The notes beneath the pieces were generated by a model. The model saw only the letters and a list, made by a program, of their open reading frames with translations. It ran no database searches and was not told the origin of the DNA. From contig NZ_CP038492.1 in assembly GCF_004751985.1 (NCBI RefSeq), positions 2,170,001 through 2,234,000 on the forward strand: a DNA stretch of 64,000 nt, in the 5' to 3' direction. How positions within the stretch are numbered: the first letter of the stretch is position 1; each line of letters begins with the position of its first letter. Origin of the DNA: Rhodophyticola sp. CCM32. Its GTDB lineage: Bacteria > Pseudomonadota > Alphaproteobacteria > Rhodobacterales > Rhodobacteraceae. Position numbers and translations under genes: made by a program. This document shows, piece after piece, positions 9,486-51,525 of the stretch.

Positions 9486-9852
9486 CGTTTCAGTGGGCGG
9501 TCGAGCTCCGCCTGAGCAAAATATGCGGATGCTTTGCGAAGGATCTCATTGGCTTGCTTGAGCTCGCGCACTTCGCGCTCCAAAGCCTTCATCTTCTCGG
9601 CCTGTTCGGGCGTGATACCGCCACGCTGGCCAGTATCGACTTCGACCGTCTTGACCCATTCGTTCAGCGTTTGCGGTGCACAGCCGATCTTTGACGCAAT
9701 CGCCGCACAACGGCTCTCATGCTGTCCTGCGCCGCCCAAAACCATCCGCACGGCACGTTCGCGCACTTCTGGTGAATACTTGTTCGTTGTCTTTGTCATG
9801 ATGCTCCATCCTACTCATGAGTTGGAGCCTCCGGCAAACCCGGCGCGGTTCG
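9005..9852 (-). mobile_element. IS3-family element, 3'-truncated copy
   Basis: This is the left part of the same IS3 as at 739-1544, in the opposite orientation. The left terminal repeat is at 9825-9852, followed by orfA and the first 160 codons of orfB, and then a breakpoint at about 9005 into traG. The terminal base differs from the other copy's right end. With the 739 copy it forms a perfect inverted repeat of about 150 bp. Confidence 0.85.
9482..9799 (-). CDS. IS3 transposase OrfA
   Basis: This 105-residue protein has the N-terminal helix-turn-helix ([15 protein letters not shown], then [12 protein letters not shown]) and a leucine-zipper tail ([21 protein letters not shown]). It is the DNA-binding regulator half of the IS3 transposase and appears intact. 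Its stop overlaps the orfB start (ATGA at 9482-9485), which suits translational coupling or frameshifting. The orfB it serves is broken. Confidence 0.9.
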
Positions 9853-9921
9853 GCGCGTACAACAACTCTGGCAAACCTTGGCTTTGGAATAGAGGGGAGC
9901 GCGGCTCACCCTTAATCCGGT

Positions 9922-11511: not shown

Positions 11512-11532
11512 GACATGGGGGTGCCGCGCGCG

Positions 11533-13707: not shown

Positions 13708-13748
13708 AGGGCTGGCGCTAGGTGGAATATGTGACAGCAGCGTGACAT

Positions 13749-14426
13749 TTATTGCTTATCCTCCGCAAGGATCGCTTTGGCCATCTTCCGGGTGGGGGCG
13801 CGTTTTGCCGCCAGTGCCATGGCATCAAGGGCCGCGATAAAGGCCTGCGCTGCGGCGAAAGACCGCTCAATCCGCGCCAACGCATAGCTGAGAATACGCG
13901 GCTTCAGGGGCATGTTGCGGTCGTGCGCCAGTTTCATCATCACCGCCGATAACAGCGCGTCATCGGGGGAGCCAAGACGCAACACACCGGCCTGCCGCAT
14001 CCGGCTGTCCAGATCGGGCAGATGCAGGCCCCAGCGCTCCGGCGCATCACGCGCGGTCAGCAACAGGGGCGCGTCCGCCTGAGCCAGCGCGTTGTGCAGA
14101 TGGAAAAGCGCGGTTTCCGCCTCCTCGCGCCCGGCGATCTGGTCGACATCTTCCACCGCAACACCGCCCGCACCGGCCAGCACCTGGCCATGATGGTCGG
14201 TCAGGTCACGGGCCTCCACCACCTCAGCCCCCGCCATATCGGCCCAGACATGGGCCAGATGGGTTTTGCCCGCGCCGGCCTCGCCCACCAGCACCATTTT
14301 GCCAAAAGGCCATTCTGCCCAGGTGTCAATGCCTGCAACCGCAACCGCATTGCCGGGGGAGACAAAGAAATCATCACGCCCCATCGCTGCGCGGATGGGA
14401 AGGGTAAACACCAGTTGCTCACCCAT
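13749..14426 (-). CDS. hdaA: HdaA-type DnaA regulatory ATPase
   Basis: This DnaA-like protein is expected to stimulate ATP hydrolysis by DnaA after initiation (regulatory inactivation). The 225 residues open EQLVFTLPIRAAMGRDDFFV, a start with the clamp-binding QLxFxL motif. Walker A GEAGAGKTH is at about residues 48-56, and a Walker B-like VAVEDVDQI follows. A small helical lid is present, but there is no DNA-binding domain IV of DnaA. The stop of the upstream transporter gene is three bases away. The arrangement transporter-hdaA-ppk is common in Rhodobacterales. Confidence 0.88.
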   Translation of the reverse strand: MGEQLVFTLPIRAAMGRDDFFVSPGNAVAVAGIDTWAEWPFGKMVLVGEAGAGKTHLAHVWADMAGAEVVEARDLTDHHGQVLAGAGGVAVEDVDQIAGREEAETALFHLHNALAQADAPLLLTARDAPERWGLHLPDLDSRMRQAGVLRLGSPDDALLSAVMMKLAHDRNMPLKPRILSYALARIERSFAAAQAFIAALDAMALAAKRAPTRKMAKAILAEDKQ

Positions 14427-14429
14427 GGG

Positions 14430-15496
14430 TCAATCGTCCTCGGGGCGATCCAGGCCACGGTAAAGCAGGCTTTGCTGATATCGCTCCACCCCATAGCGCA
14501 CAAGGACGCCGATCACGGCGGCAATCGGCACGGCAATCATCAGGCCGACAAAGCCGAACAGCGCCCCAAAGGCGGACAGGGCGAAAATCAGCCAGACCGG
14601 ATGCAGCCCCACGGACCCGCCCACCAGTTTCGGGGTCAGGATATTGCCCTCGATCAGCTGGCCGATCTGGAAGATCGCGGCCACCGCCAGAATCCACCAC
14701 CATTCCCCCAGAACTGGAACAGCGCCAGACCAACGGCCAGCGCCCCGCCAAACAGCGCCCCCACATAGGGAATGAAAGAAATCAATCCGGCCACGAACCC
14801 CACAACAACCCCGAATTGCAGCCCCACAAACATCAGCGCAACGCCATAGAAGGTGCCGAGGATCAGGCAGACCGTGCCCTGCCCACGCACAAAACTGGCC
14901 AGCGTCCGGTCGATCTGCGAGGCCAGACGCCGGATCACCGGGCGATGATCGCGCGGCAGCAGGCTGTCGATCTGCGCCACCATCCGGTCCCAGTCGAGCA
15001 GCAGGTAGAAAGACACCACCGGCACGACCACCACAAAGACCATGAAATTCACCACGCCCATGGCCGATGACAGAACCGTATTCACCAACTCGCCACCGCG
15101 CGCCTGTATCGTTTCACCGATTGAGGCCAGCGATTGCCGGAGTGGTGAGGTTTCTTCCATGATTGTGGGAAAGCGCTCTGACAGAAAGGCCTGTAACTGG
15201 CCAAACAGATCCGGCGCGCTTTGCACCAGTTCCGCCAGTTGCGAGATCAGCACCGGGATCACGATCAGCCCCGCCAGAACCACAATCAACAGGGCCACCA
15301 GCGAGATCAGCACGGTCGCCAATATCCGCGACAGGCCCAGACGTTCCAGACGGTCAGCCACCGGATCAAGAAAATAGGCCACCGCACCGCCGACCACGAA
15401 GGGCAGAATGATATCTCCAAGCGCCCGCAGCAGCAGAAAAAACACCGCCGCCGCGATGCCCCAATATATCAGCTGTTGTCGAACCGGCAAAGCCAT
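14430..15496 (-). pseudogene. AI-2E family (PerM/YdiK-type) transporter, single frameshift
   Basis: This membrane protein has eight or so helices and belongs to the AI-2E exporter-like family. ATG at 15494-15496 follows GGAG (GGAGACC). The family core FSLIPYVGALFGG-like stretch is present as LISFIPYVGALFGGAL. At about 14705 the frame breaks: after LFQFWG the natural continuation (E)WWWILAVAAIFQIG is one base out. A run of five Gs on the coding strand where six would restore the frame explains it. The rest (NILTPKLVGGSVGLHPVWLI) is intact and ends at 14430. This is either a real lesion or a homopolymer error. The substrate is unknown. Confidence 0.8.
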
Positions 15497-15653
15497 GGCG
15501 CGCAGGTCTCCTTTGGTCCAGTAAATGCGACAGCGCACCGCTCAGGGCAAGCCCAAAGGCCCGCAACTCAGGACGGATATGGGTATTCAGAGCCCGAAAT
15601 CATCGCCCGGGAACAGGCGACCCTCTTGCTGCGAACCGGGTCAGGGCACCGGA

Positions 15654-16574
15654 TCACGGCGCCAGATTGATTGACCATTCCTGTTCCACCAGCGCCACGC
15701 CGAACGAGGTGACCGGCTCGGACCTGCCCAGCGAAAACCCGTTTTTGCGGTAAAGGGCACAGGCGGCGCGATGGCTTTCATGGGTCCACAGCACCATCCG
15801 CCGATAGCCCTTATCGCGGGCGAACCCCATGCAGGTCTCCAGCAGGCACTGGCCCAGCCCCTGCCCCCGCGCCTCGGGCGTCAGCAGAAACAGGCGCAGC
15901 TTGGCCACATCCGGCTCCGGCCCGGTGACGCAGAAGATCGACCCCAGACGGCGACCGCCCTGCCAGGCGATCCAGCCGCGTTCCCGGCGGGGATCATGAT
16001 TGCGGATGAAATCCGCCAGAATTTCCGCGACCAGCGCCTCGAAACTGGCATCAAACCCTTCATCGCGGGCATAGAGCACGCCGTGCTGCTCGATCAGCCA
16101 GCCCAGATCGCCGATGGCCAGATCCCGCAATTCAATCTCGGGCCTCTGCGCCGCCTGTCTTGACAGGGTCGCATCCACCCCAGCCATCCGGGCAACCAAA
16201 GCGGCACGTTCAACCGCTGGCATATCCTCAATCCACTCCGCAATCTGCGCCCGCGACAGCGCTGTCAGCTCCGCCGCGCGGATCAATCCTTTGCGGGTCA
16301 GGCCCAGAATATGCACCCGGCGATCCCGCGAATGTCGGGTCCGCTCCACCAGCCCGGCCCGGGACAGGCGGCTCAGCATCCGGCTGAGATACCCCTCATT
16401 CAGGCCAAGATGCTGGGACAGAACGCCCGCGGTCCAGTCAACGCCATCGGCCAGCTCGAATACCACCCGCGCCTCGGCCAGGCTCAGCCCGGCCTGAAGA
16501 TATTCCTGACGCAACAACCCCAGACGCCGTGTATGCGACCGGTTGAAGGCCCTGATCTGATCAATTTCGTCCAT
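15654..16574 (-). CDS. MarR-type regulator fused to a GNAT acetyltransferase
   Basis: The 306 residues carry two domains. Residues 1 to about 145 form a MarR winged helix (LSLAEARVVFELADG, LGLNEGYLSRMLSRLSRAGLVERTRHSRDRR). Residues about 148-305 form a GNAT domain with the acetyl-CoA loop TPEARGQGLGQCLLE. Fusions of this type occur across Proteobacteria and probably sense or modify a small molecule, but substrates are mostly unknown. A perfect inverted repeat 11 bases upstream of the start codon is the likely autoregulatory site. The gene is monocistronic, next to a divergent small ORF. Confidence 0.88.
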   Translation of the reverse strand: MDEIDQIRAFNRSHTRRLGLLRQEYLQAGLSLAEARVVFELADGVDWTAGVLSQHLGLNEGYLSRMLSRLSRAGLVERTRHSRDRRVHILGLTRKGLIRAAELTALSRAQIAEWIEDMPAVERAALVARMAGVDATLSRQAAQRPEIELRDLAIGDLGWLIEQHGVLYARDEGFDASFEALVAEILADFIRNHDPRRERGWIAWQGGRRLGSIFCVTGPEPDVAKLRLFLLTPEARGQGLGQCLLETCMGFARDKGYRRMVLWTHESHRAACALYRKNGFSLGRSEPVTSFGVALVEQEWSINLAP

Positions 16575-38538: not shown

Positions 38539-39387
38539 TCAGCGGGTCGTCGCAATGGTCTGTTGCGATGTCTTATGGGTCACATGCAGCCGCCGCAGGA
38601 AGGCAATGATGAAAACCCCCGTCAGGATCAGAACAATCGTCGGGGCAGGCGCACTGTCGATATAGAAGCTTGCATAGCTGCCGAACAGCATTGCGAAAAG
38701 ACAGACCGCAACCGAGACCAGCAACATCCGGTCAAAGCTGCGCACCATCAGGAAGGCAATCGCCCCCGGGGTGACCAGCAGGGCCACCGCCAGAATCAGG
38801 CCGGTGGCGGTCAGCGTGGAGACGATTGTCAGGGACAGCACCGACAGCAGCCCGTAATGCAGCAAACCAGTGCGCAAGCCGCTGGCACGGGCCTGCGCCG
38901 GATCGAATGCGTGCAGCAGCAGATCCTTCCATTTCATCACCAGAAACGCGCAGACACCAAGCGAGATCAGGCCCGAGGTCCACAGATCCTGAGACCCGAC
39001 ACCCAGCATATTGCCGAACAGGATATGGTCCAGATGCTGGTTCGTGGTGATCGAGGTATAGAGGATGATCCCGATCCCGAACATGCCCGAGAACACCACC
39101 CCCATCACCGTATCCTGTTTCACCCGGCTGTTATAAGACAGGTATCCGGTCAGCAGCGCACAGGTCATGCCGGCGCCGAACGCGCCCAGGATCAGGGGAA
39201 TACCGGTGATCCAGGCCAGCACCACACCGGGCAACACGGCGTGGCTGACCGCATCCCCCATCAGGGCCCAGCCTTTGAGCACCAGAAAACAGGACAACAA
39301 AGCGGTGGGCGGGGCAACAAGTATGGCAATCCAGAAGGCGTTCTGCATGAACACGAACTGAAACGGCTGCAGAAGCGTGTCGATCAC
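38539..39387 (-). CDS. sitD: Mn/Fe ABC transporter permease (SitD)
   Basis: This multi-pass permease belongs to the ABC-3 metal family. The 282 residues include the ATPase-contact loop LMGDAVSHAVLPGVVLAW and repeated helices to about residue 265. The start is GTG at 39387, which follows GGAGGT and overlaps the sitC stop (GTGA); no ATG suits. It is the last gene of sitABCD. A polar tail ends in the cytoplasm. Confidence 0.92.
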   Translation of the reverse strand: MIDTLLQPFQFVFMQNAFWIAILVAPPTALLSCFLVLKGWALMGDAVSHAVLPGVVLAWITGIPLILGAFGAGMTCALLTGYLSYNSRVKQDTVMGVVFSGMFGIGIILYTSITTNQHLDHILFGNMLGVGSQDLWTSGLISLGVCAFLVMKWKDLLLHAFDPAQARASGLRTGLLHYGLLSVLSLTIVSTLTATGLILAVALLVTPGAIAFLMVRSFDRMLLVSVAVCLFAMLFGSYASFYIDSAPAPTIVLILTGVFIIAFLRRLHVTHKTSQQTIATTR

Positions 39388-40283
39388 GGGCGGACCTCCT
39401 CTTGTGTCGCGGCCAGACCAGCGCCGCGCTTTTCCGCCAGCGCCTGAGAGGCCTTGCGGCGGGCGGCCAGCATCCCGTGCTTCGGCGCGAAGACAAATGC
39501 CGTCAGGAACAGAAGCGTCTGAAAGGTCACGATCACCCCGCCCGTCGCCCCGTCCAGGAAATAGCTGGCATAGGCGCCGACAAAACTGGTCACGGTTCCG
39601 ATCAGAACCGAGACGATGATCAGGCGCGGAAAGCGGTCGCACAGCAGATAGGCCGTGGCCCCCGGTGTCACCACCATCGCAATCACCAGAAACGCGCCCA
39701 CGGTGATCATCGCCGCCACGATGGCCGCGGACAGCAATCCGAAGAACACTGCTTTCAGAAGCTCCGGATAGAGGCCGATAGTACGGGCGTGGTTTTCATC
39801 GAAAAAGACAACCATCAGATCCTTCCATTTGGCCAGCAGCACCACCAGCGACACAAAACCGATGATCGCCAGTTGCATGGTGTCTTCCGGCGTGATCGCC
39901 AGAATATTGCCCAGAATGATCGTCTGGATGTTGACTGCCATCGGCGACAGCGAGATCAGAAACAGGCCCAGCCCGAAGAAAGACGTGAAAATGATGCCGA
40001 TGATGACGTCGATTTTAAGCCCTGATCGCCCGGACAGAAACAGCATTGAGCCCGCCGCCAGCCCGCCCGCGATGAACGCGCCAAGCGCAAAGGGCAGGCC
40101 CAGTATATAGGCGGCGGCCACCCCGGGGACGACCGAATGGGACAGGGCATCGCCGATCAGCGACCAGCCCTTGAGCATCAGATAGCAGGACAGAAACGCA
40201 CAGACCCCGCCAACCAGCGACGAAACCCACATCGCATTGAACATGTAGCTATAGCCGAAGGGCTCCAGAAGCGTGCCGATCAT
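39384..40283 (-). CDS. sitC: Mn/Fe ABC transporter permease (SitC)
   Basis: The 299-residue ABC-3 permease has the EAA-like loop [21 protein letters not shown] and at least eight hydrophobic helices. It overlaps sitB by four bases and sitD by four, so all are translationally coupled. With SitD it forms the heterodimeric channel. Confidence 0.93.
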
Positions 40284-41179
40284 GTCTTGCCTTTCGGCTC
40301 AGACCGCTCGCTGTAATCCACGAAGGGCCGTTCATCATCGGTGATGATGCGAACCACGCGCGGGTCGTCATCCTCGTGCAGTTCATCCCCACCCAATGTG
40401 AAGTGGCGCAACACGCCGCCAAAGGCCTTTTCCAGATTGTCACGCGTAAAGGTTGTCTCTGTCGGTCCGTAGGCCAGCACGGTTCCCTTGACCAGAACGG
40501 TGCGGTCGCAAAATTCCGGAACCGAGCCAAGGTTATGGGTTGAGACCAGCATGACGCGGCCTTCATCCTTCAACTCCCGCAGGAGCGCGACAATCTGTTC
40601 TTCGGTCTTCACATCCACGCCGGTGAAAGGTTCATCCAGCAGGATCACCTGCCCGTCCTGCGCCAGCGAGCGGGCCAGAAACACGCGTTTGCGCTGCCCG
40701 CCGGACAGTTCGCCAATCTGGCGGTGGCGGAAATCCTGCATGTTGACGCGGCGCAGCGCCTCTTCAACAGCGTCATGATCCGCGCGGCGGGGGCGCCGTA
40801 AAAATCCCATATGGCCATAGCGGCCCATCATCACCACATCCTCGACCAGCACCGGGAAGGCCCAATCGACCTCTTCGGACTGGGGAACATAGGCGACAAG
40901 ATTTGCGGCCAGCGCCTCTTTCACGGTCTTGCCCAGCAGCCGGATGTCCCCGCGCGCGGCAGGCACGAACCCCATGATCGCCTTGAACAAGGTTGATTTG
41001 CCCGCGCCATTCACACCGACCAGGGCGGTGATGGTGCCCCGTGGTATCTCAAAACTGGCGTCATGCAGGGCTGTGTGACCATTACGGTAGGTCACCGTAA
41101 CCTCCCGGGCAAGGATACCGCCTGACGGCCCATTGGTATCAATGCTGTGCAATGGCTCGGGGGATTGGTCAAGCATCAT
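40280..41179 (-). CDS. sitB: Mn/Fe ABC transporter ATP-binding protein (SitB)
   Basis: The 299-residue ATPase shows Walker [16 protein letters not shown]-loop [11 protein letters not shown], signature [15 protein letters not shown], Walker [13 protein letters not shown] and the switch His in STHNLG. A C-terminal extension of about 55 residues is unlike bare ABC ATPases but usual for SitB. The 105-base gap to sitA contains a strong hairpin. Confidence 0.94.
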
Positions 41180-41231
41180 GACATCCTTGCTGTTTCGGGG
41201 TCTTTGATATCAACGATAAATCATAAACCAA

Positions 41232-41257
41232 CCGCCGTGAACCAGGGCTCACGGCGG
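41232..41257 (-). terminator. Hairpin between sitA and sitB
   Basis: CCGCCGTGA-N8-TCACGGCGG is a perfect 9-bp stem between sitA and sitB, followed (toward sitB) by a loosely T-rich stretch. It could give partial termination or protect the sitA message, so that binding protein exceeds ATPase. No other feature lies in 41180-41284. Confidence 0.6.
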
Positions 41258-41284
41258 CAACACTTGTTAATTGGTCTGTGCGTC

Positions 41285-42199
41285 TCAGTTCATATTCTCG
41301 GTCAGACCATCGGCCACGGTCTGGGCAGTGACACGCAACAAATCAAGATAGGTCGGAACCGGGCCATCCGCCGTGCTGAGACTGTCCACATAAAGAACAC
41401 CGCCATAGGCTGCCCCGGTTTCACGGGCGACCTGCTCGGCCGGCGATGTGTTGACGGTGCTTTCACAGAACACAACCGGAATGTCATGTTCGTTCACCGC
41501 ATCAACCACACTGCGCACCTGCTGCGGCGTGCCAACCTGATCGGCATTCATCGGCCACAGATACAGTTCACGCATGCCGAAATCACGGGCAAGATAGCTG
41601 AACGCCCCTTCGCAGGTGACCAGCCAGCGCAGATCTTCGGGAATCTCTTCAACCGAAGCCCGAAGCGGCCCGATCGTATCGCGGATCTGCTGCTTATACG
41701 CCTCGGCATTGGCCATATAGGTGTCGGCATTGTCCGGGTCATGTTCGGCAAAGGCGGCGGCGATATTGTCGACATAGATCAACGCATTGTCCAAACCCAT
41801 CCAGGCATGGGGGTTGGGCAGCCCTTCATAGGAACCAGACGCGATGGAAATCGGTACAATCCCGTCAGTCAGCGTCACCGAGGGCAGATCGCCAAGATTG
41901 TCCAGGAACTGTTCGAACCACAGTTCAAGATTCATCCCGTTCCACAGGATAAGATCGGCATCGCTGGCGGCGACAATGTCCTGTGGTGTGGGCTCATACC
42001 CGTGGATTTCCGCGCCGGGCTGCGTGATCGAAACAACCTCTGCCGCATCACCGGCCACATTCTGCGCCATATCGGCCAGAACCGTGAAGGTTGTTACGAC
42101 GACAAAATCATCGTCTTCGGCAAGGGCAGAAGAGGCGAGTACCGAAGCAGATGCCAGCGTCGCGGCCAGTACGGCGGATCGCGGTGAGAATCGTATCAT
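41285..42199 (-). CDS. sitA: Mn/Fe-binding periplasmic protein (SitA)
   Basis: A cleavable signal peptide ends SSALA-EDDD. The 304-residue protein is a cluster A-I metal-binding protein with ligands in GAEIHGYEPTP (His), NPHAWMG (His), FCESTVN (Glu) and LYVDSLS (Asp). H-H-E-D ligand sets are typical of Mn/Fe binding. It leads the sit operon and lies divergent from mur with a palindromic box between. Confidence 0.94.
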   Translation of the reverse strand: MIRFSPRSAVLAATLASASVLASSALAEDDDFVVVTTFTVLADMAQNVAGDAAEVVSITQPGAEIHGYEPTPQDIVAASDADLILWNGMNLELWFEQFLDNLGDLPSVTLTDGIVPISIASGSYEGLPNPHAWMGLDNALIYVDNIAAAFAEHDPDNADTYMANAEAYKQQIRDTIGPLRASVEEIPEDLRWLVTCEGAFSYLARDFGMRELYLWPMNADQVGTPQQVRSVVDAVNEHDIPVVFCESTVNTSPAEQVARETGAAYGGVLYVDSLSTADGPVPTYLDLLRVTAQTVADGLTENMN

Positions 42200-42264
42200 T
42201 TTTAAACTCCTAATCAGTTAAGACCGGCATACTGTGAATGCGAAGCAGTCGCAAGAGTCAAGCC

Positions 42265-42285
42265 AAATGAGAATGATACTCATTT
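42265..42285. promoter_or_regulatory. Mur/Fur box between sitA and mur
   Basis: AAATGAG-N7-CTCATTT is a perfect 7-7-7 palindrome with AATGATA in the middle, close to a Fur box. It lies about 66 bases upstream of sitA and 38 upstream of the mur ATG used here, so Mur with Mn should repress both genes. Confidence 0.8.
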
Positions 42286-42322
42286 TCTTGCTTGCCCGGT
42301 GATGACAGGCTATTCATATCTC

Positions 42323-42757
42323 ATGGAGCATTCTGAACCCCCGGCAGAGAAAAACACCGAATATGCCCGGCTTCTGCGTGAAGCCGGGTTGCGGGTGACA
42401 CAGCAAAGGACTGTGATCATCGCCATTCTTGCAACGGCAGATGATCACCCGAATGCAGATGATGTGTTTGTAAAGGCCCGGCTGCTGGATGACACGGTTT
42501 CGGTCGCCACCGTTTACCGGACGATGGCCACCCTTGAAGCGGCTGGGGTCATCCGCAAGCTGACTTTCGAGGACGCGCCCGCCCGCTATGAAATGACGCC
42601 GCATAACGACCATGATCATCTGGTGGATATCGACACCGGTGAACTGATCGAGATACCGGCCCATGAAATTGCCCGGCTGCGCGACAAGGCGGCGGCAGAG
42701 CTGGGATATGAAATCATCAGCCAGCACACCATCCTGCGCGGGCGGCGAAAATCTTGA
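42323..42757 (+). CDS. mur: Manganese uptake regulator Mur (Fur family)
   Basis: The 144-residue winged helix includes LREAGLRVTQQRTVIIAILA and VSVATVYRTMATLEAAGVI. The metal region is HNDHDHLVDIDTGELIEI. The C-x2-C that would bind structural zinc in Fur (HLxCxxCG) is replaced by LVDIDTGE, as in alphaproteobacterial Mur. Its place next to sitABCD supports the Mn role. The start is uncertain: 42299 (GTG), 42302 or 42323. A family-A MITE is inserted 12 bases past the stop. Confidence 0.88.
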   Translation: MEHSEPPAEKNTEYARLLREAGLRVTQQRTVIIAILATADDHPNADDVFVKARLLDDTVSVATVYRTMATLEAAGVIRKLTFEDAPARYEMTPHNDHDHLVDIDTGELIEIPAHEIARLRDKAAAELGYEIISQHTILRGRRKS

Positions 42758-42903: not shown

Positions 42904-43158
42904 TCAGGTCTTTCGGGAGGTCACCCGTTCGGTGAATGACAGCACCAGAAACGTCAGAACAACCCAGATTTGCAGGCTGAAAGGCGCGTAAGGCGTACCG
43001 CGCAGCCATAGGCGCACAAGGTCTCCCCCCGGCGGCAGGGCGCGCAGACCAAAAAGACCGGGGCGCGACCACAAGTCAAACGGCCAGAAACGGGACAGGT
43101 AGAGCAGCGCCACACCGACAATGACAGCCACCGCAATCCGCAGGAGACGTGCAATCAT
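42904..43158 (-). CDS. Rieske operon gene 7: small membrane protein
   Basis: The 84 residues have two predicted helices (RIAVAVIVGVALLYLSRFW and LQIWVVLTFLVLSFTE). The ATG overlaps the gene upstream by four bases. Its function is unknown, and it is the last gene of the seven-gene unit. Confidence 0.7.
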   Translation of the reverse strand: MIARLLRIAVAVIVGVALLYLSRFWPFDLWSRPGLFGLRALPPGGDLVRLWLRGTPYAPFSLQIWVVLTFLVLSFTERVTSRKT

Positions 43159-43916
43159 TCCAGCGCCTCCAGCGTGTCTTCATCCAGAATGAACACCGGC
43201 AGATCGCCGCGCAGCGACACCCGCCCCTCTGCCATCACAAGCAGCCCCACATATTCAAGGATGGCGCGGTCAATCGGGGTGCCATCTTCACGTCCCACAA
43301 GAAAAAACTCATGCCCCTGCACCGGTTCGGAGGACACGAAAACCGGTGGCACCTCCCCGATCAGGCACAGCGAGGCGCAGGCGCGATGGGCAATCCCGCG
43401 CCCCGGCCGCATGGCGCCCGCCAGGCATTTCCCGTCGCAGATTTCGCCGGAAAGCCGCCAGCGCCCCAGATCGGTGGTCTCCACATCGGGCACCTCCCCC
43501 TCTGCCGGCATGACACCCTGATTGCCGCCCGCCAGTTGCAGCATGTTCAGATCGCCCCGCTCCAGAACAACGCCCTGCAGGGTGACCAATGCGCCATCAA
43601 AATCCGCGACCCGCCCGGCCACGCCGAATTTGCCGCCCCCCGCCAGCATGATCGACTGACCGGCCCCGATATGGTCTGTTCCCTCTGTGACATGCAGCAT
43701 CGGGTAGGGCACCATTGAGATCACACCGGTCAGAGCCTGGCGCCCGTAATCGAACCGGAACCGGCCCGGCCCCGGATCCTCCTGGGTGGAGCCCACCCCC
43801 CAACTGAACAGCGCAAACCCCCAGATCAGAACCGCCGAGACCAGCAGCAGAAACCCGCGCAATCCGGCAGGGACCGGCAGGTAACCCACAAAGAAAGGGC
43901 GATCCGGGTCAGACAT
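43155..43916 (-). CDS. Rieske operon gene 6: membrane-anchored protein with Cys/His motif
   Basis: A single N-terminal helix (GFLLLVSAVLIWGFALFSWG) anchors an exposed domain of about 200 residues. GEICDGKCLAGAMRPG, followed by GIAHRACASLCLIGEVPP, gives a C-x3-C and an H-x2-C-x3-C pattern that could bind metal or form disulphides. ATG at 43916 is used, just after the TGA of the upstream gene; a GTG at 43919 is possible. The function is unknown, but the position argues for a redox-complex role. Confidence 0.75.
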   Translation of the reverse strand: MSDPDRPFFVGYLPVPAGLRGFLLLVSAVLIWGFALFSWGVGSTQEDPGPGRFRFDYGRQALTGVISMVPYPMLHVTEGTDHIGAGQSIMLAGGGKFGVAGRVADFDGALVTLQGVVLERGDLNMLQLAGGNQGVMPAEGEVPDVETTDLGRWRLSGEICDGKCLAGAMRPGRGIAHRACASLCLIGEVPPVFVSSEPVQGHEFFLVGREDGTPIDRAILEYVGLLVMAEGRVSLRGDLPVFILDEDTLEALE

Positions 43917-45016
43917 CACGCAGTCTCCGTTGTCTGTGTTGGTCCTGTCTGTGCCGGCGCCGCCCCGGGTGGGACAGGCACCGGCGCCACATATGTTCCG
44001 GGCGGGTTGGGCAGGGTGCGGATAATCACCGCCCCGTCGCTGACCCGCAAATCATAGGTGGGCACTTTTTCGGTAAACGGCTCGGGGGAGCGCCCGGTGG
44101 TCACATCATACTGAAACCCGTGCCAGGGGCAGGTGACAAGGCAATCAATGATCCGCCCCTCACCCAATGGGCCGTTCTGATGGGCGCAGGCGTTGGAGAT
44201 TGCCGACAGTTTATCGGATTGCCGGAACACCGCCACCCGGTCCCCCGAAGACAGGATCGCGACCTTGCCGAACCCTTCGCGCACATCCTCAACCCGGCAG
44301 ACGGTTTCCCATCCGGGCTCTGCCGCCATTGTCGCGCCCGGGTCGCCCTTGCGGCGATCATGCCAGGCGGCGGCCACATGCAGCCCCACCACCAGCGCCG
44401 TGGCCAGACCAAAGCTGATCGCCATGCCCGGGGCATGCATATCCTGCAACACGCCCAGACCGATATGGCCCACCAGGGCCGCATAGGCGGCATAGACAAG
44501 GACATGCAGGTTTTTCCAGATCCGCGGCGTCAGGAATTTCATCCAGAAATCATGACTGGTCAGCGCCATGATCCCCAGGCACAGCAAGGTGAACAGACCC
44601 AGGATTTCAAAGGGAAACCCGCGCAACCGGGTGAAGGAGATATTGGCCGATAAAAGCGCCTCATACCGATCCACCGGCGAGAAGGAAAAATACCAGCCAA
44701 GGACAGAATAGGCATGGGAGAGCGCAATGAAGAACACCATCACCCCGAAATGACGCCGGTTATACAGCAACGGCAGAAACCGGGTGTCGAGCCGCGCCAG
44801 AGGACCGATGCACAGGATCACCGTCAGCATGAAAAACCCGCAGGCGCCAAACGCCCGCGCATTGCGGATTTGCGGATTGATCGGTTGTTCATGATTCAGC
44901 AGACCGGGGCTGATGAAGATGAAAATCCACAAGAACAGCGCCACGCCGGTCAGCATGATCGCGTCATATATCCATTTATTCGGGTTCCATTGAACCGGAA
45001 TGTATTTGACGCTCAT
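43916..45016 (-). CDS. Rieske operon gene 5: ferric-reductase-like membrane protein with Rieske domain
   Basis: The 366 residues start with six or so helices like a ferric-reductase/YedZ-type haem protein: conserved His in RRHFGVMVFFIALSHAY and KNLHVLVYAAYAALVGHIGLG could bind two haems. A C-terminal Rieske domain follows: C277-A-H279 and C296-P-W-H299 (CAHQNGPLGEG, TCPWHGFQYD), then a Pro/Thr-rich tail. It would accept electrons at the membrane. ATG overlaps gene 4 by four bases. Confidence 0.9.
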   Translation of the reverse strand: MSVKYIPVQWNPNKWIYDAIMLTGVALFLWIFIFISPGLLNHEQPINPQIRNARAFGACGFFMLTVILCIGPLARLDTRFLPLLYNRRHFGVMVFFIALSHAYSVLGWYFSFSPVDRYEALLSANISFTRLRGFPFEILGLFTLLCLGIMALTSHDFWMKFLTPRIWKNLHVLVYAAYAALVGHIGLGVLQDMHAPGMAISFGLATALVVGLHVAAAWHDRRKGDPGATMAAEPGWETVCRVEDVREGFGKVAILSSGDRVAVFRQSDKLSAISNACAHQNGPLGEGRIIDCLVTCPWHGFQYDVTTGRSPEPFTEKVPTYDLRVSDGAVIIRTLPNPPGTYVAPVPVPPGAAPAQTGPTQTTETA

Positions 45017-45390
45017 TGCCCGGCCTCCTGTGGCGGCTCCAGCAGCACCGGGGCGGTCAGTTCGGTCAGGCTCTGGCGCGCGGCCAGTGACGCGATGAAG
45101 ATCAGCGGGATGATGATGGCCATAACGCACCAGGCCCGGGCGTGGAAACGGCGCGGCGGATGGTGGCGGCGTGTCCAGTCATCGCGACCGGTTTCCAGCA
45201 CCCACCAGCGCCACAGCACAAGCGGCCAGATCATGATCACCCCCGGGGCGATCAGCGGCCGGAACACATAGGCTCCCCGGGCATCCTCGTCGATCCGCCC
45301 CATGCCGATGGTCAGAAAGGCCAGCGCCACGGCGGCCCCGACCCAGAGCCAGATTTTGGTCAGCAGAACAAGGGCGGCGGCCAGTGTCAT
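45013..45390 (-). CDS. Rieske operon gene 4: membrane protein
   Basis: The 125 residues have about three helices (LAAALVLLTKIWLWVGAAVALAFL, APGVIMIWPLVLWRWW, AWCVMAIIIPLIFIASLA) with a charged middle (RRHHPPRRFHAR). It overlaps genes 3 and 5 by four bases. The histidines suggest possible haem or quinone contacts; no family was recognised. Confidence 0.75.
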   Translation of the reverse strand: MTLAAALVLLTKIWLWVGAAVALAFLTIGMGRIDEDARGAYVFRPLIAPGVIMIWPLVLWRWWVLETGRDDWTRRHHPPRRFHARAWCVMAIIIPLIFIASLAARQSLTELTAPVLLEPPQEAGQ

Positions 45391-46997
45391 TGAATACCTC
45401 CATAGGCCACGCCCGACAGGTCAGACATCTCGCGTTTCCAGGTGGTCAGGTCGGCGGATGTGAACCCCGACAGATGATCATGCCCACAGGCCCGTGCCAT
45501 CACCGCCATCAGATGGGTGCTGGCCTCGAAGAAATTCGCCAATTGCCGGGCCGAGCTTTCGACGATGATCCGGCTGGCCAGTTCCGGTTTCTGACTGGCA
45601 ATGCCGACCGGGCAATTATTGGTGTGGCAGGCCCGCATCGCGATACAGCCGATGGCCTGCATCGCCGCGTTCGACACCGCGATGGCATCGGCGCCAAGGG
45701 CCATGGCTTTCACGAAATCCGCCGGTTTTCTGAGCCCCCCGGTGATCACCAGCGTGACATCCTTGCGCTCCGATCGGTCCAGATGCCGCCGGGCCCGGGC
45801 AAGCGCCGGAATGGTCGGGACCGAGATATTGTCGCGGAAGATGATCGGCGCCGCGCCCGTGCCGCCCCCGCGCCCGTCAAGGATGATGTAATCAACACCC
45901 ACAGCAAGAGCCGCGTCGATATCCTGTTCGATATGCTGCGCGGACAGTTTGTACCCGATCGGGATACCACCGGTCCGGTCGCGCAGTTCATCGGCGAAAT
46001 CCCTGATCTGGGCCGGGTCCGTCCAGTCGGGGAACCGCGACGGGGAAATCGCATCCTGCCCCGGTTCCAGCCCCCGGACCTCGGCAATCTTGCCTTTGAC
46101 CTTGGAGCCCGGCAGGTGCCCGCCGGTGCCGGTCTTGGCCCCCTGCCCGCCTTTGAAATGGAACGCCTGCACATTGGCCAGCTTGTCCCAGTCAAACCCG
46201 AACCGGGCCGAGGCAAGCTCATAGAAATACCGCGTATTTTCCGCCTGTTCCTCGGGCAGCATGCCACCCTCGCCCGAACAGATGCCGGTGCCCGCCATCT
46301 CGGCCCCCATCGCAAGCGACAGTTTGGCCGGCTCAGACAGCGCGCCAAAAGACATGTCCGAGACGAAAAGCGGGATTTTCAGGCGCAGGGGTTTCTGGGC
46401 ATTCGGGCCGATCACCACATCGGTGCCCACCTCTGCATCATCCAGAAGCGGCGGGCGGTGAAGCTGCGCGGTCAGAATCTGGATATCGTCCCATGTGGGC
46501 AGTTCATCCCGTGGCACGCCCATCGCATCGACCACCCCGTGATGGCCGGTTTTCGACAATCCGTTCTTCGCATAGGACTGGATCAGCCCGGTATGGGGTT
46601 CCTCCGCCGTGCCATGTGACGTGTCCGCATAAAGACCCAGATAGGCATCGCGGTTGAAAGGTTGCGGGTTTTCGGCGGCCCAGGTCGTGATCTCGTCTTC
46701 ATCGACGCAGATGTCATCGCCCTCCACCCAGCTTTTGAACTTCGGCAGCGCCTCCTCATTGGCATAGGCCGAGACGCCGGTTTCCAGCCGGTAATCCCAG
46801 TTATGCACCCCGCAGATCAGGTCTTTGCCGCGCACGAACCCATCGGACATCAACGCGCCCCGGTGCAGACAGCGGCCATAGAAAACCGAAAGCTCCTCAT
46901 CAAAACGCACGACCACAAGATCAACTTCGCCGACCAGCGCATAAGCGGGGGACCGGTCTGGCAGGTTGGACAGTTTGGCTATTATGGCTTTGGTCAT
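45387..46997 (-). CDS. Rieske operon gene 3: Rieske domain fused to GltB-like FMN/3Fe-4S protein
   Basis: Residues 1 to about 100 are a Rieske domain: C43-L-H45 and C62-G-V-H65. Residues about 130-536 are the glutamate-synthase-like FMN barrel: LFVSDMSFGALSEPAKLSLA, GICSGEGGMLPEE, IGYKLSAQHIEQDIDAAL, DYIILDGRGGGTGAAP and, near the end, the 3Fe-4S site C451-x5-C457-x4-C462 (CHTNNCPVG). There is no glutaminase domain. It could oxidise or reduce a small substrate and pass electrons through three cofactors. The start is MTKAIIAK (46997). Confidence 0.9.
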   Translation of the reverse strand: MTKAIIAKLSNLPDRSPAYALVGEVDLVVVRFDEELSVFYGRCLHRGALMSDGFVRGKDLICGVHNWDYRLETGVSAYANEEALPKFKSWVEGDDICVDEDEITTWAAENPQPFNRDAYLGLYADTSHGTAEEPHTGLIQSYAKNGLSKTGHHGVVDAMGVPRDELPTWDDIQILTAQLHRPPLLDDAEVGTDVVIGPNAQKPLRLKIPLFVSDMSFGALSEPAKLSLAMGAEMAGTGICSGEGGMLPEEQAENTRYFYELASARFGFDWDKLANVQAFHFKGGQGAKTGTGGHLPGSKVKGKIAEVRGLEPGQDAISPSRFPDWTDPAQIRDFADELRDRTGGIPIGYKLSAQHIEQDIDAALAVGVDYIILDGRGGGTGAAPIIFRDNISVPTIPALARARRHLDRSERKDVTLVITGGLRKPADFVKAMALGADAIAVSNAAMQAIGCIAMRACHTNNCPVGIASQKPELASRIIVESSARQLANFFEASTHLMAVMARACGHDHLSGFTSADLTTWKREMSDLSGVAYGGIQ

Positions 46998-47011
46998 AAG
47001 TCCCTCTTCTT

Positions 47012-48223
47012 TTATACGTCTTTTTGCAATCCCGATACCCGCCCGATCCATCTTGCGGCAGGCGCGGCGGACACGCCATGCAGAACCGCGCTGATCAGAA
47101 CCGCGGTGAAGGCGATCAGCAAAATCTCATCCCCGTGGGTCAGCCCGTCAAAATCATGCAACACCAGAAGCGCGAACAGCGCCGTGGCAAGACCGCGCGG
47201 ACCGAACCAACCCATGAAAAGCTTTTCACCCGGCTCGGCCCCGCTGCCCGTGAGGGAAAGCCAGATCGCCAGCGGGCGGGCGACAAACAGGCTGGTGACG
47301 ATCAGCCCGATCCAGACCGGGTCCACAGCCATCAGCCGGTCCATCGAAAATGTCAGCCCGATGGTCAGAAAGGCCAGAAGAACCAGCATCTGACCCTCGG
47401 TTTCCATGAATTCCAGAAGGAACGGGTGGCGTTCGCCCAGAACCATGCCAAAGGCCAGACCCGCCACAAAAGTTGCAAGAAACCCGTTGCCGCCCAGCTC
47501 GGCACTCAGCAGATAGGCCAGCCCGGCCAGCGCCAGAACGCCGATCCCCTCATAGAGATCATTGCTGTATCCGGTGGAGGAGGCTTTTTTGATAAACCAG
47601 CCACCTCCGGCCCCGACCAATGCTCCGGTCAGAACACCCAGCCCGACCTGCTCCATCGCGAAGACAACCCAGCTTGTCTGCACATTGTCGTGGAGCCCCG
47701 CAACCGCCAGGCATCCGAACAGCAATATCGCCGGCAGCGCCAGACCGTCATTCAGCCCGCTTTCCATGGTAATCGCCGTCCGAATACGCTCGGGCACGGC
47801 AGTATTGCTGATCACCGCCTGACCAAGGGCCGCATCGGTCGGCGCCAGAATGGCCGCCAGCAGCGCGACCTCCCACAGGGGCCAGTCAGGCAGCAGCGGG
47901 CGGGCGATCAGATAGCCGATCAGGATCATCAGCGGCAGCCCCAGAACCAGCATCCGCCCGGCACGGGTGACCCCGGCCCTGTCGCCGCGTTTCAGCCGCA
48001 TCATCGCCGCGTCGGTGAACAGCACGATCACCAGCGTGATTTCGGCCAGAGGATGCAGCAAATCCTGAAGCTGCTGCATCTCGGGCGCGTCGACAAACAG
48101 CGTGGCCACCAGCCCCATGCCCAGAAACACCATCGGCGCGGTCACCACGCCCTCAGCCAGACGGCGCGCCATCAGCGCATATAGAAAGGTCAAAGCCGAC
48201 AGGGCCAGCAGCGCAACAGTCAC
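47012..48223 (-). CDS. Rieske operon gene 2: cation/proton antiporter (CPA1 type)
   Basis: The 403-residue protein has 11-12 helices: LYALMARRLAEGVVTAPMVFLGMG, LLAAILAPTDAALGQAVI with the TD motif, ESGLNDGLALPAILL with the ND motif of CPA1, and MGWFGPRGLATALFALLV. GTG 48223 is the start. It exchanges Na+ or K+ for H+. Its presence among redox genes suggests a need to balance charge or pH, but the link is inference. Gaps to neighbours are 34 and 14 bases. Confidence 0.9.
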   Translation of the reverse strand: MTVALLALSALTFLYALMARRLAEGVVTAPMVFLGMGLVATLFVDAPEMQQLQDLLHPLAEITLVIVLFTDAAMMRLKRGDRAGVTRAGRMLVLGLPLMILIGYLIARPLLPDWPLWEVALLAAILAPTDAALGQAVISNTAVPERIRTAITMESGLNDGLALPAILLFGCLAVAGLHDNVQTSWVVFAMEQVGLGVLTGALVGAGGGWFIKKASSTGYSNDLYEGIGVLALAGLAYLLSAELGGNGFLATFVAGLAFGMVLGERHPFLLEFMETEGQMLVLLAFLTIGLTFSMDRLMAVDPVWIGLIVTSLFVARPLAIWLSLTGSGAEPGEKLFMGWFGPRGLATALFALLVLHDFDGLTHGDEILLIAFTAVLISAVLHGVSAAPAARWIGRVSGLQKDV

Positions 48224-48257
48224 CCGTCCTCCCCCGCATCCTGTGGCCAGATACGCA

Positions 48258-50240
48258 TCAGACCAGTTCCATATCGGTCATGATCTCCACCAGGGCGGGC
48301 CCGTCATAGGCAAGCGCCTCTGCAATCGCGGCAGGGATCTGATCTGCCTTGGTCACCTTGGCCCCGTGCCCGCCGCACAGCCGGGCAAAGGCCGCGAATG
48401 AGGGGTTGATCAGATCGGTCTGCCAGGCCGCGAAATGGCCCGCGCGCTGTTCCTTGGTGATCTTCCCAAGCTGGCCGTTATTCAGCAAAATATGGGTGAT
48501 GTTCATCCGGTATTTTACCGCCGTGGTGAATTCCATTGCATATTGGCCAAACCCGCCATCGCCCGAGATCGAGATGACCGGCCGCCCGGCATATTCCGGG
48601 TCCTCCTGCGTGGCGGCCCAGGCCCCCATCGCCGCAGGGAAGGAAAACCCGATGGAGCCCAGATACCCCGACATCAGCACCCGCTGGCCCTTGGTCTCGA
48701 AATAGCGTCCAAAGGAATAGGTGTTGTTGCCCACATCCACGGCAATCACCGCATTCGCGGGGCAGAGATCGGACAGATGCCGGAAGATCACCGCCGATCC
48801 CAGCCCCTTGCCCGCGTCATCGCTGACCCGGCTCTGTTTTTCCTCCCGCCAGATGGCCCAGCGCTCCGCGATTCCGGCGGCATGATCCTCGGCCTCCGCA
48901 TGGCGGGTCAGCCCGGTCTGCACCGCATCGCAGAACGCCCCGATTTCCCCCCAGACCGGCAGGGTGACGGGATGGAACTTGCCCAGCTGCGCCTGCTCGA
49001 AATCCACCTGGATGATCGTTTTTCCCGGTTCGATCCCGGTGTGATTGGCGAAAGACGACCCAAGGGTCAGCACCAGATCGGCCTCATTCATGAACCAGCT
49101 GGCAATCGGCGTGCCCGAGCGGCCCAGAACACCTGCTGCATAGGGGTGATCATCGGGGATCAGCCCCTTGCCCTTGAAGGTGGTCACAGCGGGCGCTTTC
49201 AACGCCTCGATCAGCGGCATCACCTTGTCCATGCTGTCAACCGCCCCATGGCCGATGACGATGAAGGGCCGTTTGGCCGCTGCGATCATCGCGCGCGCAC
49301 GGTCCAGCTCGCTATCGGCGGGGATCACCACCGGCAGGGCCATGCGCCCCTCCGGCCCTTTTGCGGGCGCGTCCGAGGGGATGGTCTGCACATCATCGGG
49401 GAAGACCAGATGCGCAACATCGCGTTCGATGATCGCCGATTTGCAGGCCAGAGAGGCCAATTCGCTGTGCTGTGAACTGGTCAGCACGGGCTGCGAAAAC
49501 TTCGCAACCGGCGCAAAGGCCGCCAGCAGATCAATATCCTGAAACGCCCCGGGGCCGAACACCTGTGTCTGCACCTGACCGGTCAGCGCCAGAACCGGCG
49601 CGCGGTCCACTTTTGCGTCCCACATGCCGGTCATCAGATTTGTGGCCCCCGGCCCGGCAATGGTCAGACAGGCGGCAGGTTTGCCGGTCAGCTTGCCATA
49701 GCCCGAGGCCGCAAACCCCGCCGCCCCTTCATGGCGGACACCGATATAGCGCATCTTTCCATCCGCAGTCTGCCGCCGGATCGCATCGGCCAGACCCAGA
49801 TTGGAATGGCCCACCATGCCAAAGACCGCCCGGATACCCCAGTTCGAGAATGTCTCGGCCATCACATCGGTGACGGTCCGCTGATGTGGCGGCTCGGGCG
49901 CCAGCCCGACCAGAACATCCCCATCCTCAACCCGGACCGGAAAGATCGCCTGGCCCGTATCCTCATGCCCGCCGGGAGGCGCGCCGGTGACCGGGTCAAA
50001 ATCCCACCCGTGCCAGGGGCATCTGATCCAGCAGGCGCCATCGACACCCTTCTCGATAGACCCTTCACCCAGGGGGCCACCCTGATGCGGGCAGTGATTG
50101 TCCATCGCGGCCCATTGACCGTCAAAATGGACAAGACAGATCGAACTTGTCCGCGCCGTCACCGTCATCACCCGGCCTTCCGGCAATTGTTTGGCTTCGG
50201 CGACCTTGATCCAGTCCAGATCCGTAGCTGTATCGTTCAT
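48258..50240 (-). CDS. Rieske operon gene 1: Rieske domain fused to a ThDP-dependent enzyme
   Basis: Residues 1 to about 115 are Rieske: C50-P-H52 and C74-P-W-H77 (NHCPHQGGPLGEG, RCPWHGWDFD). Residues about 120-660 resemble the pyruvate oxidase/acetolactate synthase family. The catalytic Glu171 is in VRHEGAAGFAASGYG, IAGPGATNLMTG follows, and ThDP/Mg binding is at GDG 560-562 with NN 587-588. The FAD-type middle domain is present in length. The expected chemistry is decarboxylation of a 2-oxo acid with electrons leaving through the Rieske cluster. ATG at 50240 (MNDTATDLDW) is chosen. It leads the operon. Confidence 0.88.
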   Translation of the reverse strand: MNDTATDLDWIKVAEAKQLPEGRVMTVTARTSSICLVHFDGQWAAMDNHCPHQGGPLGEGSIEKGVDGACWIRCPWHGWDFDPVTGAPPGGHEDTGQAIFPVRVEDGDVLVGLAPEPPHQRTVTDVMAETFSNWGIRAVFGMVGHSNLGLADAIRRQTADGKMRYIGVRHEGAAGFAASGYGKLTGKPAACLTIAGPGATNLMTGMWDAKVDRAPVLALTGQVQTQVFGPGAFQDIDLLAAFAPVAKFSQPVLTSSQHSELASLACKSAIIERDVAHLVFPDDVQTIPSDAPAKGPEGRMALPVVIPADSELDRARAMIAAAKRPFIVIGHGAVDSMDKVMPLIEALKAPAVTTFKGKGLIPDDHPYAAGVLGRSGTPIASWFMNEADLVLTLGSSFANHTGIEPGKTIIQVDFEQAQLGKFHPVTLPVWGEIGAFCDAVQTGLTRHAEAEDHAAGIAERWAIWREEKQSRVSDDAGKGLGSAVIFRHLSDLCPANAVIAVDVGNNTYSFGRYFETKGQRVLMSGYLGSIGFSFPAAMGAWAATQEDPEYAGRPVISISGDGGFGQYAMEFTTAVKYRMNITHILLNNGQLGKITKEQRAGHFAAWQTDLINPSFAAFARLCGGHGAKVTKADQIPAAIAEALAYDGPALVEIMTDMELV

Positions 50241-50699: not shown

Positions 50700-50927
50700 T
50701 CAGTGCACGCTGACCGGCGTCATATCGTTCTGCCTTGCGACCATAAAGGCCAGCTTGCGGTCCTTGACCAGCGCCAGTTGTTCGCCTGTCTCGCTGCCGA
50801 TCGCGTAAAGCTCCTCCAGACCCTTGGCCTGTTTGCGCACATCGCGCGGCAAATCCGCGACCGCAACCTTGCGGATATAAACAATCGGCTGTCCTTCGGT
50901 TTGGGCAGCTTCATTTTGTTCAAACAT
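50700..50927 (-). CDS. DUF1150 family protein
   Basis: The 75 residues begin MFEQNEAAQTEGQPIVYIRKV, then DLPRDVRKQAKGLEELYAIGS. This small family follows hsp20 in many Alphaproteobacteria. Its start overlaps the hsp20 stop by eight bases, so the two are co-translated. The function is unknown. Confidence 0.85.
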   Translation of the reverse strand: MFEQNEAAQTEGQPIVYIRKVAVADLPRDVRKQAKGLEELYAIGSETGEQLALVKDRKLAFMVARQNDMTPVSVH

Positions 50928-51348
50928 TGCTCTGACCTCCGGTTTTGATTTCAATTGTCTGTACAATACTGTCGGGCATCACGCGCGCCAGATCCACATG
51001 CAGCAGCCCATGCTCCATCAGGGCACCTGCAACCTCGACCCCTTCTGCCAGCACGAAACTGCGCTGGAACTGCCGTGCCGCAATGCCCCGGTGCAGGAAC
51101 ATCCGGTCGCTGTTCTCTTCGGCCTGACGACCCCGGACCATCAACTGACGGTCTTCAACGGTGATCGACAAATCCTCTTCGGCGAACCCGGCCACAGCCA
51201 GCGTAATGCGATAGGCGTTTTCGCCCTTTTGTTCTATATTATAGGGTGGATAACCGTCATTGCCGGATTTCGCGGTGCGCTCCACCAGCCGCTCCAGCTG
51301 ATCAAAGCCCAGTAAAAACGGGTGTGATCCAAGGGTCAGTTTCGTCAT
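50920..51348 (-). CDS. Hsp20 family small heat-shock protein
   Basis: The 142 residues have an alpha-crystallin domain: YPPYNIEQKGENAYRITLAVAGF, EDLSITVEDRQLMVRGR, HRGIAARQFQRSFVLAEGVEV and a final LLHVDLARVMP. A holdase that keeps unfolded proteins soluble. The start MTKLTLGSHPFLLGFD (51348) is favoured over 51366. I did not see a clear sigma-32 promoter. Confidence 0.93.
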   Translation of the reverse strand: MTKLTLGSHPFLLGFDQLERLVERTAKSGNDGYPPYNIEQKGENAYRITLAVAGFAEEDLSITVEDRQLMVRGRQAEENSDRMFLHRGIAARQFQRSFVLAEGVEVAGALMEHGLLHVDLARVMPDSIVQTIEIKTGGQSNV

Positions 51349-51525
51349 TCGGCACATCCTTAGCATTCAAGCGATCTGCAGGGTCGGGCCCCGCATTCGG
51401 CAGCCCTGTTGCAATAAATATGGGGGACCGGGCACAGACCTGCAAGGGCAGGACCGCTTTGCCTCACGGGCATTTGTGGGTATCGTTAGCGGCTCTAACC
51501 GACGAATCCCCATCAAGGCCGGCCC

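Follow-up and report, generated by a model that had tools for sequence, protein, structure and literature searches.

Why should three different enzymes encoded in a single operon each carry a Rieske domain? This question is raised by seven genes (g1–g7) in a 64,000-nucleotide stretch of the genome of Rhodophyticola sp. CCM32 (NZ_CP038492.1, positions 2,170,001 to 2,234,000; the whole stretch is called the window below). Here, a thiamine diphosphate (ThDP) enzyme (g1), a GltB-type enzyme with a flavin mononucleotide (FMN)/[3Fe-4S] domain (g3), and a ferric-reductase-like transmembrane protein (g5) each bear such a domain. Our analysis showed that this gene set is conserved in relatives beyond chance. 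It may represent a stress-linked electron circuit, a reading to which we assign a probability of roughly 0.4, in which His-ligated [2Fe-2S] tethers would serve as one-electron contacts from cytosolic flavoenzymes to a transmembrane haem protein.

Three Rieske fusions in a conserved gene set

Gene coordinates were taken from a list of open reading frames (ORFs) and their translations, with start codons picked among those listed (Table 1). As the initial annotation had described, the seven minus-strand genes are closely packed, with gaps of 34 and 14 bases followed by overlaps of 4, 4, 1, and 4 bases. Its domain calls agree with Pfam, which recognized TPP_enzyme N, M, and C domains on g1, Na_H_Exchanger on g2, Glu_synthase on g3, and Ferric_reduct on g5, while g4, g6, and g7 gave no match up to an E-value of 0.1. 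The Rieske ligand pairs that it had pointed out on g1, g3, and g5 are likewise borne out, as all four cluster ligands are present in each domain and all three exceed the Pfam Rieske cut-off of 20.3 bits (59.3, 43.0, and 56.7 bits, respectively).

The whole 3.86 Mb genome contains 13 Rieske matches, three of which sit in the operon, within 7.3 kb. In alignments whose rows were hand-picked from larger sets, the C-x-H … C-x2-H ligands are invariant in 18 of 18 relatives of g1 and 24 of 24 relatives of g5; those of g3 are invariant in all 13 Rieske-type rows of a 23-row alignment, the other ten rows being of the CDGSH or MgsC/GlxD type. This conservation suggests that all three domains bind a cluster. 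They lack the second cysteine pair found in the genome's own bc1-type protein (CTHLGC..CPCH, L166), and in the absence of these extra disulphide cysteines they look like the soluble, low-potential (ferredoxin-type) kind. Soluble-type Rieske domains have a ferredoxin-like potential near −0.15 V. Identity between the domains amounts to 31% for g1 and g5 and 23% for g1 and g3 (the g3–g5 pair is not among the matches listed), values that rule out a recent triplication of one domain. In a tree of the three operon domains and the ten others of the genome, which has just one well-supported inner branch, g1, g3, and g5 do not cluster by themselves; they fall together with a fourth domain, L164 (fork 84/93).

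To follow the neighbourhood, an alignment of g1 relatives was scanned against genome contigs, which gave 453 loci; the best 80 were kept, a choice that favours close relatives. By title, they come mostly from Rhodobacterales and Hyphomicrobiales-type Alphaproteobacteria, with a few labelled otherwise. Fifty of these 80 have more than 9 kb on either side of g1 (long-flank loci). All three Rieske fusions occur together in 28 of the 50, in agreement with the synteny that the initial annotation had asked about. Among the individual genes, g3 is present in 44 long-flank loci, g4, g5, and g6 in 31 each, g2 in 28, and g7 in 15, and g1 stands without any other operon gene in two. Twelve distinct arrangements were found, most commonly g2-g3-g1-g4-g5-g6 (13 loci), g2-g3-g1 (9), and g3-g1 (7), followed by g2-g3-g4-g5-g6-g7-g1 and g3-g4-g5-g6-g7-g1 (5 each). 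The order seen in the window, with g1 ahead of g3, recurs within the 50 in L022 only and among the remaining loci in L021.

Co-occurrence was further assessed in a class sample of 289 genomes not chosen by gene, tallied by hand from match lists; the automatic tallies (225, 210, 160, and 17 genomes for g1, g3, g5, and g6) include distant relatives. The full g1 fusion is present in 13 genomes (54–100% identity), full Rieske-GltB in 8, full-length g5 (44% identity or more) in 15, and a clear g6 in 14, with three more having only a weak g6 match. Seven genomes contain g1, g3, g5, and g6 together, and g1 and g3 are non-adjacent in four of them (G157, G290, G270, and G373). The association is strong for g3 with g1 (Fisher p = 4e-10) and for g5/g6 with g1 (2e-7), although these values ignore kinship and are just a guide. 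At the order level, the g1 fusion was found in 15 of 149 sampled genomes.

Table 1. Genes and Rieske domains of the operon, with positions in the window
Feature	Position	Strand	Basis
g1, Rieske + ThDP enzyme (TPP N/M/C), 660 residues	48258..50240	-	Pfam; best solved relative by sequence is E. coli PoxB
Rieske domain of g1, C50-x-H52 ... C74-x2-H77	49980..50216	-	Pfam and alignment
g2, Na_H_Exchanger (CPA1-type) antiporter, 403 residues	47012..48223	-	Pfam; best NCBIfam model potassium/proton antiporter, under cut-off
g3, Rieske + GltB-type FMN/[3Fe-4S] synthase domain, 536 residues	45387..46997	-	Pfam, alignments
Rieske domain of g3 (two CDGSH domains instead in sister proteins)	46767..46985	-	Pfam, alignments
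g4, small membrane protein (by eye), 125 residues, without Pfam family	45013..45390	-	ORF list, Pfam; present in 31/50 long-flank loci
g5, YedZ/MsrQ-like ferric-reductase-like transmembrane domain, predicted to bind haem, + C-terminal Rieske, 366 residues	43916..45016	-	Pfam, 24-sequence alignment
Rieske domain of g5, C277-x-H279 ... C296-x2-H299	44054..44311	-	Pfam and alignment
g6, one N-terminal helix + two beta domains (oligonucleotide/oligosaccharide-binding (OB)-like by strand order, our own reading)	43155..43916	-	34-sequence alignment, AlphaFold2
g7, small membrane protein (by eye), 84 residues, without Pfam family	42904..43158	-	ORF list, Pfam; present in 15/50 long-flank loci

Genes for ZnuA/ABC-3-type metal uptake and a divergent Fur-family gene adjoin the operon at window positions 39384–42757, and upstream of g1, at 50700–51366, an HSP20 gene and a DUF1150 gene overlap.

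Tethered enzymes and the membrane cassette

The relatives of g1 are named "pyruvate oxidase" or "thiamine pyrophosphate-binding protein" in databases. Residues 121–656 of g1, comprising its whole ThDP core, align with residues 3–528 of the 572-residue PoxB chain, and the catalytic glutamate and the GDG…NN motif are retained (E171, G560–G563, and N588, invariant in 18 sequences). Unlike PoxB, g1 has an N-terminal Rieske domain and lacks the C-terminal membrane-binding peptide, as it stops four residues past the aligned stretch, where this peptide would begin. It also scores far under the NCBIfam cut-offs (best model PRK08611, 367.5 versus 742 bits; ubiquinone-dependent pyruvate dehydrogenase, 304.7 versus 792 bits). 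Some relatives carry added tethers. In L125, two CDGSH domains precede Rieske and ThDP domains (Pfam), and L127 and L128 are similar by eye. L126 (9090-11705, −) and L129 (7941-10718, +) have four iron-sulfur domains ahead of one ThDP enzyme, uniting two CDGSH domains, Fer4_19 (which we take to be DUF1271), Rieske, and ThDP domains in a single protein (Pfam). L126 also has a gene 41% identical to g2, an FMN reductase, an extracytoplasmic function (ECF) sigma factor, and a zf-HC2 anti-sigma gene. The L126 and L129 proteins recall the type 7 CISD architecture, given as CDGSH + DUF1271 in PMC3174974, whereas g1 of the window has a Rieske domain only, with neither CDGSH nor Fer4_19 matches in Pfam. 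The L124 relative (664 residues) resembles the g1 of the window.

The g3 protein retains the SGEGG, QGAK-G-GG-LPG, and C-x5-C-x4-C motifs of glutamate synthase in alignments, together with a strong FMN/[3Fe-4S] domain match (PF01645, 307.3 bits). It shares this domain and its active-site motifs with the FMN subunits of glutamate synthase and of the MgsC/GlxD type, but differs from them in bearing its own Rieske domain, and a Pfam search confined to the operon found no glutamine amidotransferase or GXGXG domain on g3 or the other six genes. Relatives of g3 at about 36–42% identity adjoin genes that read by eye like amidotransferase and GXGXG subunits, in clusters of MgsABC/GlxBCD appearance.

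Closer relatives of g3 revealed an exchange of tethers. Four genomes of the class sample (G432, G357, G001, and G348) match g3 over the GltB part alone, at 65–71% identity, and carry CDGSH motifs at the N-terminus; L134, the one sister protein of the four that was searched with Pfam, has two zf-CDGSH domains and no Rieske domain. In a 23-row GltB tree (midpoint root, small outgroup), 19 rows with a Rieske (13) or CDGSH (6) tether split from four MgsC/GlxD-type rows with 100/100 support, and a single change between tethers suffices, with support of 71/59 for the Rieske rows and 93/84 for the CDGSH rows. The CDGSH form takes the slot of the Rieske form directly before g1 in L070 and L097, and the g1 fusion is absent from all four CDGSH-GltB genomes of the class sample. 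In a phylum sample of 299 genomes, 44 genomes matched g3 at an E-value of 1e-90 or better. In 12 of them the match extends into the Rieske part (10 at full length), in 25 it starts at residue 107 or later and runs to, or almost to, the end of GltB, and in the other 7 it is incomplete or shows less than 50% identity. By eye, a CDGSH motif opens each of the eight late-starting proteins inspected outside the class (L155–L162).

In PMC3174974, type 5 CISD denotes proteins in which tandem CDGSH domains are joined to the FMN domain of a glutamate synthase, and the discussion there calls CISD function yet to be understood; the CDGSH-bearing sisters of g3 correspond to this type as described there. 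Both they and g3 fall in one GltB clade and carry His-ligated [2Fe-2S] tethers at the N-terminus of the same kind of enzyme, but g3 has a Rieske domain in place of the two CDGSH domains and no zf-CDGSH match in Pfam. CDGSH is also listed with Glu_synthase, Fer4_19, and Rieske domains in PMC5859297.

The g2 antiporter clearly contains the Na_H_Exchanger domain (104.2 versus a cut-off of 26.2 bits). It falls under the cut-off of all six NCBIfam models that it matches, the best of which are K+/H+ antiporters. Of the 28 g2 genes in long-flank loci, 27 adjoin g3, and the g2–g3 pair is also found where g1 is elsewhere (L144 and L148).

The membrane cassette is built around g5 and g6. A 24-sequence alignment of g5 showed invariant H89, H101, H155, H171, H184, and R87. 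By spacing, H101, H171, and H184 match His-115, His-209, and His-222 of NOX2 as numbered in PMC3591440, so that three of the canonical set of four haem histidines are accounted for, and R87 occupies the arginine position of YedZ; the YedZ-like histidine pattern of transmembrane helices 3 and 5 described in that source is likewise found. On this pattern, g5 is predicted to bind haem. It thus resembles MsrPQ (YedYZ) and the ferric reductase domain (FRD) superfamily in its domain and its histidine/arginine pattern, but differs in the extra invariant H89 and in having no FMN domain match in Pfam, and it misses the curated MsrQ model cut-off (37.9 versus 130 bits). The Figure 3 legend of PMC3591440 includes an FRD architecture with a Rieske domain (model M4, where FMN is listed too).

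A further difference from MsrPQ lies in the partner, as g6 has no Pfam family and hence no MsrP-type match. Its motif D-x2-C-x4-M … H-x2-C-x3-C is invariant in 34 sequences (Cys164, Met169, His177, Cys180, and Cys184 in the window), and the confident AlphaFold2 model (predicted local distance difference test score 89) consists of one helix followed by two beta domains. The single N-terminal helix suggests that the remainder of g6 is extracytoplasmic. Five Pfam families that each matched one of the 34 members were taken as chance (E-values 0.01 to 0.07), and a search by sequence for a solved relative gave none that is convincing, the best being a sporulation protein at an E-value of 0.0031.

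Neighbouring genes and stress context

Genes of regulatory and redox-stress type recur near members of the gene set. Of the 80 loci, 9 have a recognized ECF sigma gene within 3 kb of g1, g2, or g3 (between midpoints), and 10 have a zf-HC2 anti-sigma gene there. In L163, where ORFs of at least 110 residues were listed and g7 thus falls outside the scope, the ECF gene is divergent from a g2-g3-g4-g5-g6-g1 set. Outside the class, 13 loci with Rieske- or CDGSH-GltB (L150–L162) were inspected, with neighbours picked by eye and then checked with Pfam in seven (L152–L155, L157, L160, and L161). Redox-stress-type neighbours were confirmed in six. L152 has a dense cluster near Rieske-GltB (8727-15654), which unites MsrA, b561, YceI, nitroreductase, old yellow enzyme, glutathione S-transferase (GST), pirin, and a CDGSH-Fer4_19 protein, and a smaller similar set of pirin, nitroreductase, YceI, b561, and GST lies near CDGSH-GltB in L161. 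In the other four, the stress-type neighbours are GST in L153, MsrA/B in L154, an FMN reductase in L155, and a ferritin-like protein in L157. In L160, an Na_H_Exchanger antiporter is found near the CDGSH-GltB gene.

Two further proteins recur at the 80 g1 loci. The first, c9, of about 283 residues (L044:12004-12855 (+) and similar), has a weak DUF5996 match under the cut-off and lies within 3 kb of g1, g2, or g3 in 19 of the 80. The second reads by eye like a membrane protein (L060:7218-7916 (+) and similar) and is found within 3 kb in 11 of the 80; the L069 ORF belonging to this cluster had no Pfam match. Neighbours named by eye as branched-chain-type ATP-binding cassette (ABC), DUF1194-like, aminolevulinate-synthase-like, and acyl-CoA genes were dropped as lineage-specific, as they come mostly from Roseibium, Labrenzia, and Stappia, and a more widely spread ABC-ATPase cluster (21 loci) was set aside because it represents a large family of paralogues.

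A possible electron circuit and its alternatives

In the circuit that we favour, the soluble-type Rieske domains would act as covalent one-electron contacts. As a pyruvate-oxidase-type enzyme, g1 would carry out the oxidative decarboxylation of a 2-oxo acid and pass the electrons to the Rieske cluster at its own N-terminus, and not to quinone by way of a PoxB-type C-terminal membrane peptide. The g3 protein would correspond to a GltB module of the ferredoxin type (FMN + [3Fe-4S]) whose ferredoxin is built in as the Rieske domain, and could either spend electrons on a 2-imino or 2-oxo acid or, run backwards, supply them. The cytosolic Rieske domain of g5 would accept electrons and relay them via haem b in the membrane either to quinones or to the metal-site-like motif of g6 on the extracytoplasmic side; g5 would then play the part of MsrQ and g6 that of MsrP, with g4 and g7 as small subunits, while the g2 antiporter would belong with g3. 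Judging by the neighbours of several relatives, a role of the gene set in redox or electrophile stress is more likely than one in everyday catabolism. We are more doubtful about a bolder version, in which interchangeable Rieske and mitoNEET-type CDGSH tethers wire the ThDP enzyme and the GltB-type flavoenzyme to the haem protein under stress induction, with electrons exported to g6 as a new kind of extracytoplasmic metalloprotein.

Several observations weigh against such a circuit. Seven class-sample genomes (G002, G364, G295, G254, G207, G422, and G284) have g5–g6 without g1 or full g3; the neighbours there look unrelated by eye, and a crude ORF caller recognized g4 in two and g7 in two. Six of the 13 class genomes with g1 have neither g3 nor g5/g6, five of these having a longer g1 relative and the sixth being L124. 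Among 19 genomes chosen for Rieske- or CDGSH-GltB, 18 gave neither g1 (E-value 1e-70) nor g5 (1e-25), and only G471 gave both. The operon is therefore built of modules that also live apart, g2–g3, g1, and a membrane cassette around g5–g6, and no single obligate chain is required. The stress link is open to objection as well: the stress-type neighbours were picked by eye before the Pfam check and their numbers are raw counts; 70 of the 80 g1 loci have no recognized ECF gene; upstream of g2, only 2 of 35 loci show an ECF-like promoter pattern, with none among the 10 that have an ECF hit; and the genes flanking the operon itself are those of the zinc-uptake-type ABC system, the Fur-family protein, HSP20, and DUF1150. 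A search for c9 in the genome of the window, with one query and no positive control, found none. The invariant K593 of g1 (n = 18) takes the position of a phenylalanine in PoxB, presumably Phe465, and the substrate may be other than pyruvate.

These points bear directly on the initial annotation, which had proposed a complex moving electrons from soluble enzymes through Rieske clusters to a membrane haem protein, with an antiporter balancing charge. The route itself still offers the simplest reason for three tethers. A single fixed complex does not fit the modular distribution, and the charge-balancing role drew no direct support, as g2 goes with g3. The tether exchange and the stress-type neighbours of relatives lay beyond what the initial annotation could see. 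The modularity is also what speaks for three independent redox units, g2–g3, g1, and g4–g7, that share an operon through co-regulation while their Rieske domains serve different partners. Each unit is found without the others, gene content and order vary among the 50 loci, and in the weakly supported Rieske tree of the genome the three domains mix with L164. We nevertheless regard this explanation as unlikely, given that three of only 13 Rieske proteins lie so close together, that the trio is kept in more than half of the long-flank loci, and that co-occurrence in the class sample is strong.

A catabolic role, as originally suggested, would couple 2-oxo-acid oxidation through g1 and g5 to the respiratory chain; the antiporter would cope with the acid and charge load, and g3 would supply or drain an amino or imino acid. 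It draws on the similarity of g1 to pyruvate oxidases, the membrane haem protein expected in g5, LutABC-like genes (by eye) near the g2–g3 pair of L144, and genes following the L163 set that read by eye like a two-component pair. However, by eye, no acid transporter or acid-pathway gene recurs across genera in the list of neighbour clusters. Those clusters found at 8–13 loci, apart from g1–g7, c9, and ECF, come mostly from Roseibium, Labrenzia, and Stappia, the ABC-ATPase family being wider, and g3 relatives occur without g1 and g5; we accordingly give this role a low probability. Least probable of all is a pH or osmotic module, in which g2 would be a K+/H+ antiporter, g3 would make or sense a glutamate-type acid, and the pH-sensitive His-ligated clusters would be sensors and not wires. 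The close company of g2 and g3, also where g1 is elsewhere, the nature of the best NCBIfam models, the His-ligated [2Fe-2S] chemistry common to Rieske and CDGSH, and the antiporter of L160 are in line with it, but g2 reaches none of the NCBIfam cut-offs and is absent from 22 of the 50 long-flank loci, and g3 bears the redox motifs of an enzyme.

Parts of this picture are already in print, namely the CDGSH-GltB architecture (PMC3174974) and a Rieske-bearing FRD architecture (PMC3591440), as these sources outline them. A literature survey that covered few subscription papers found no description of the g1 fusion, Rieske-GltB, the tether exchange, or the gene set. Rieske domains on ThDP and GltB-type enzymes lie outside the textbook partners of this fold, and since both keep recurring beside a Rieske haem protein, the cluster may well be their shared contact. 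If the circuit with interchangeable tethers is true, type 5 CISD proteins would gain a function and a set of partners. The swap of Rieske and CDGSH domains on one enzyme provides two natural versions that differ in their tether, one of them with likely partners, and thereby makes the role of the bacterial CDGSH-glutamate-synthase proteins directly testable.

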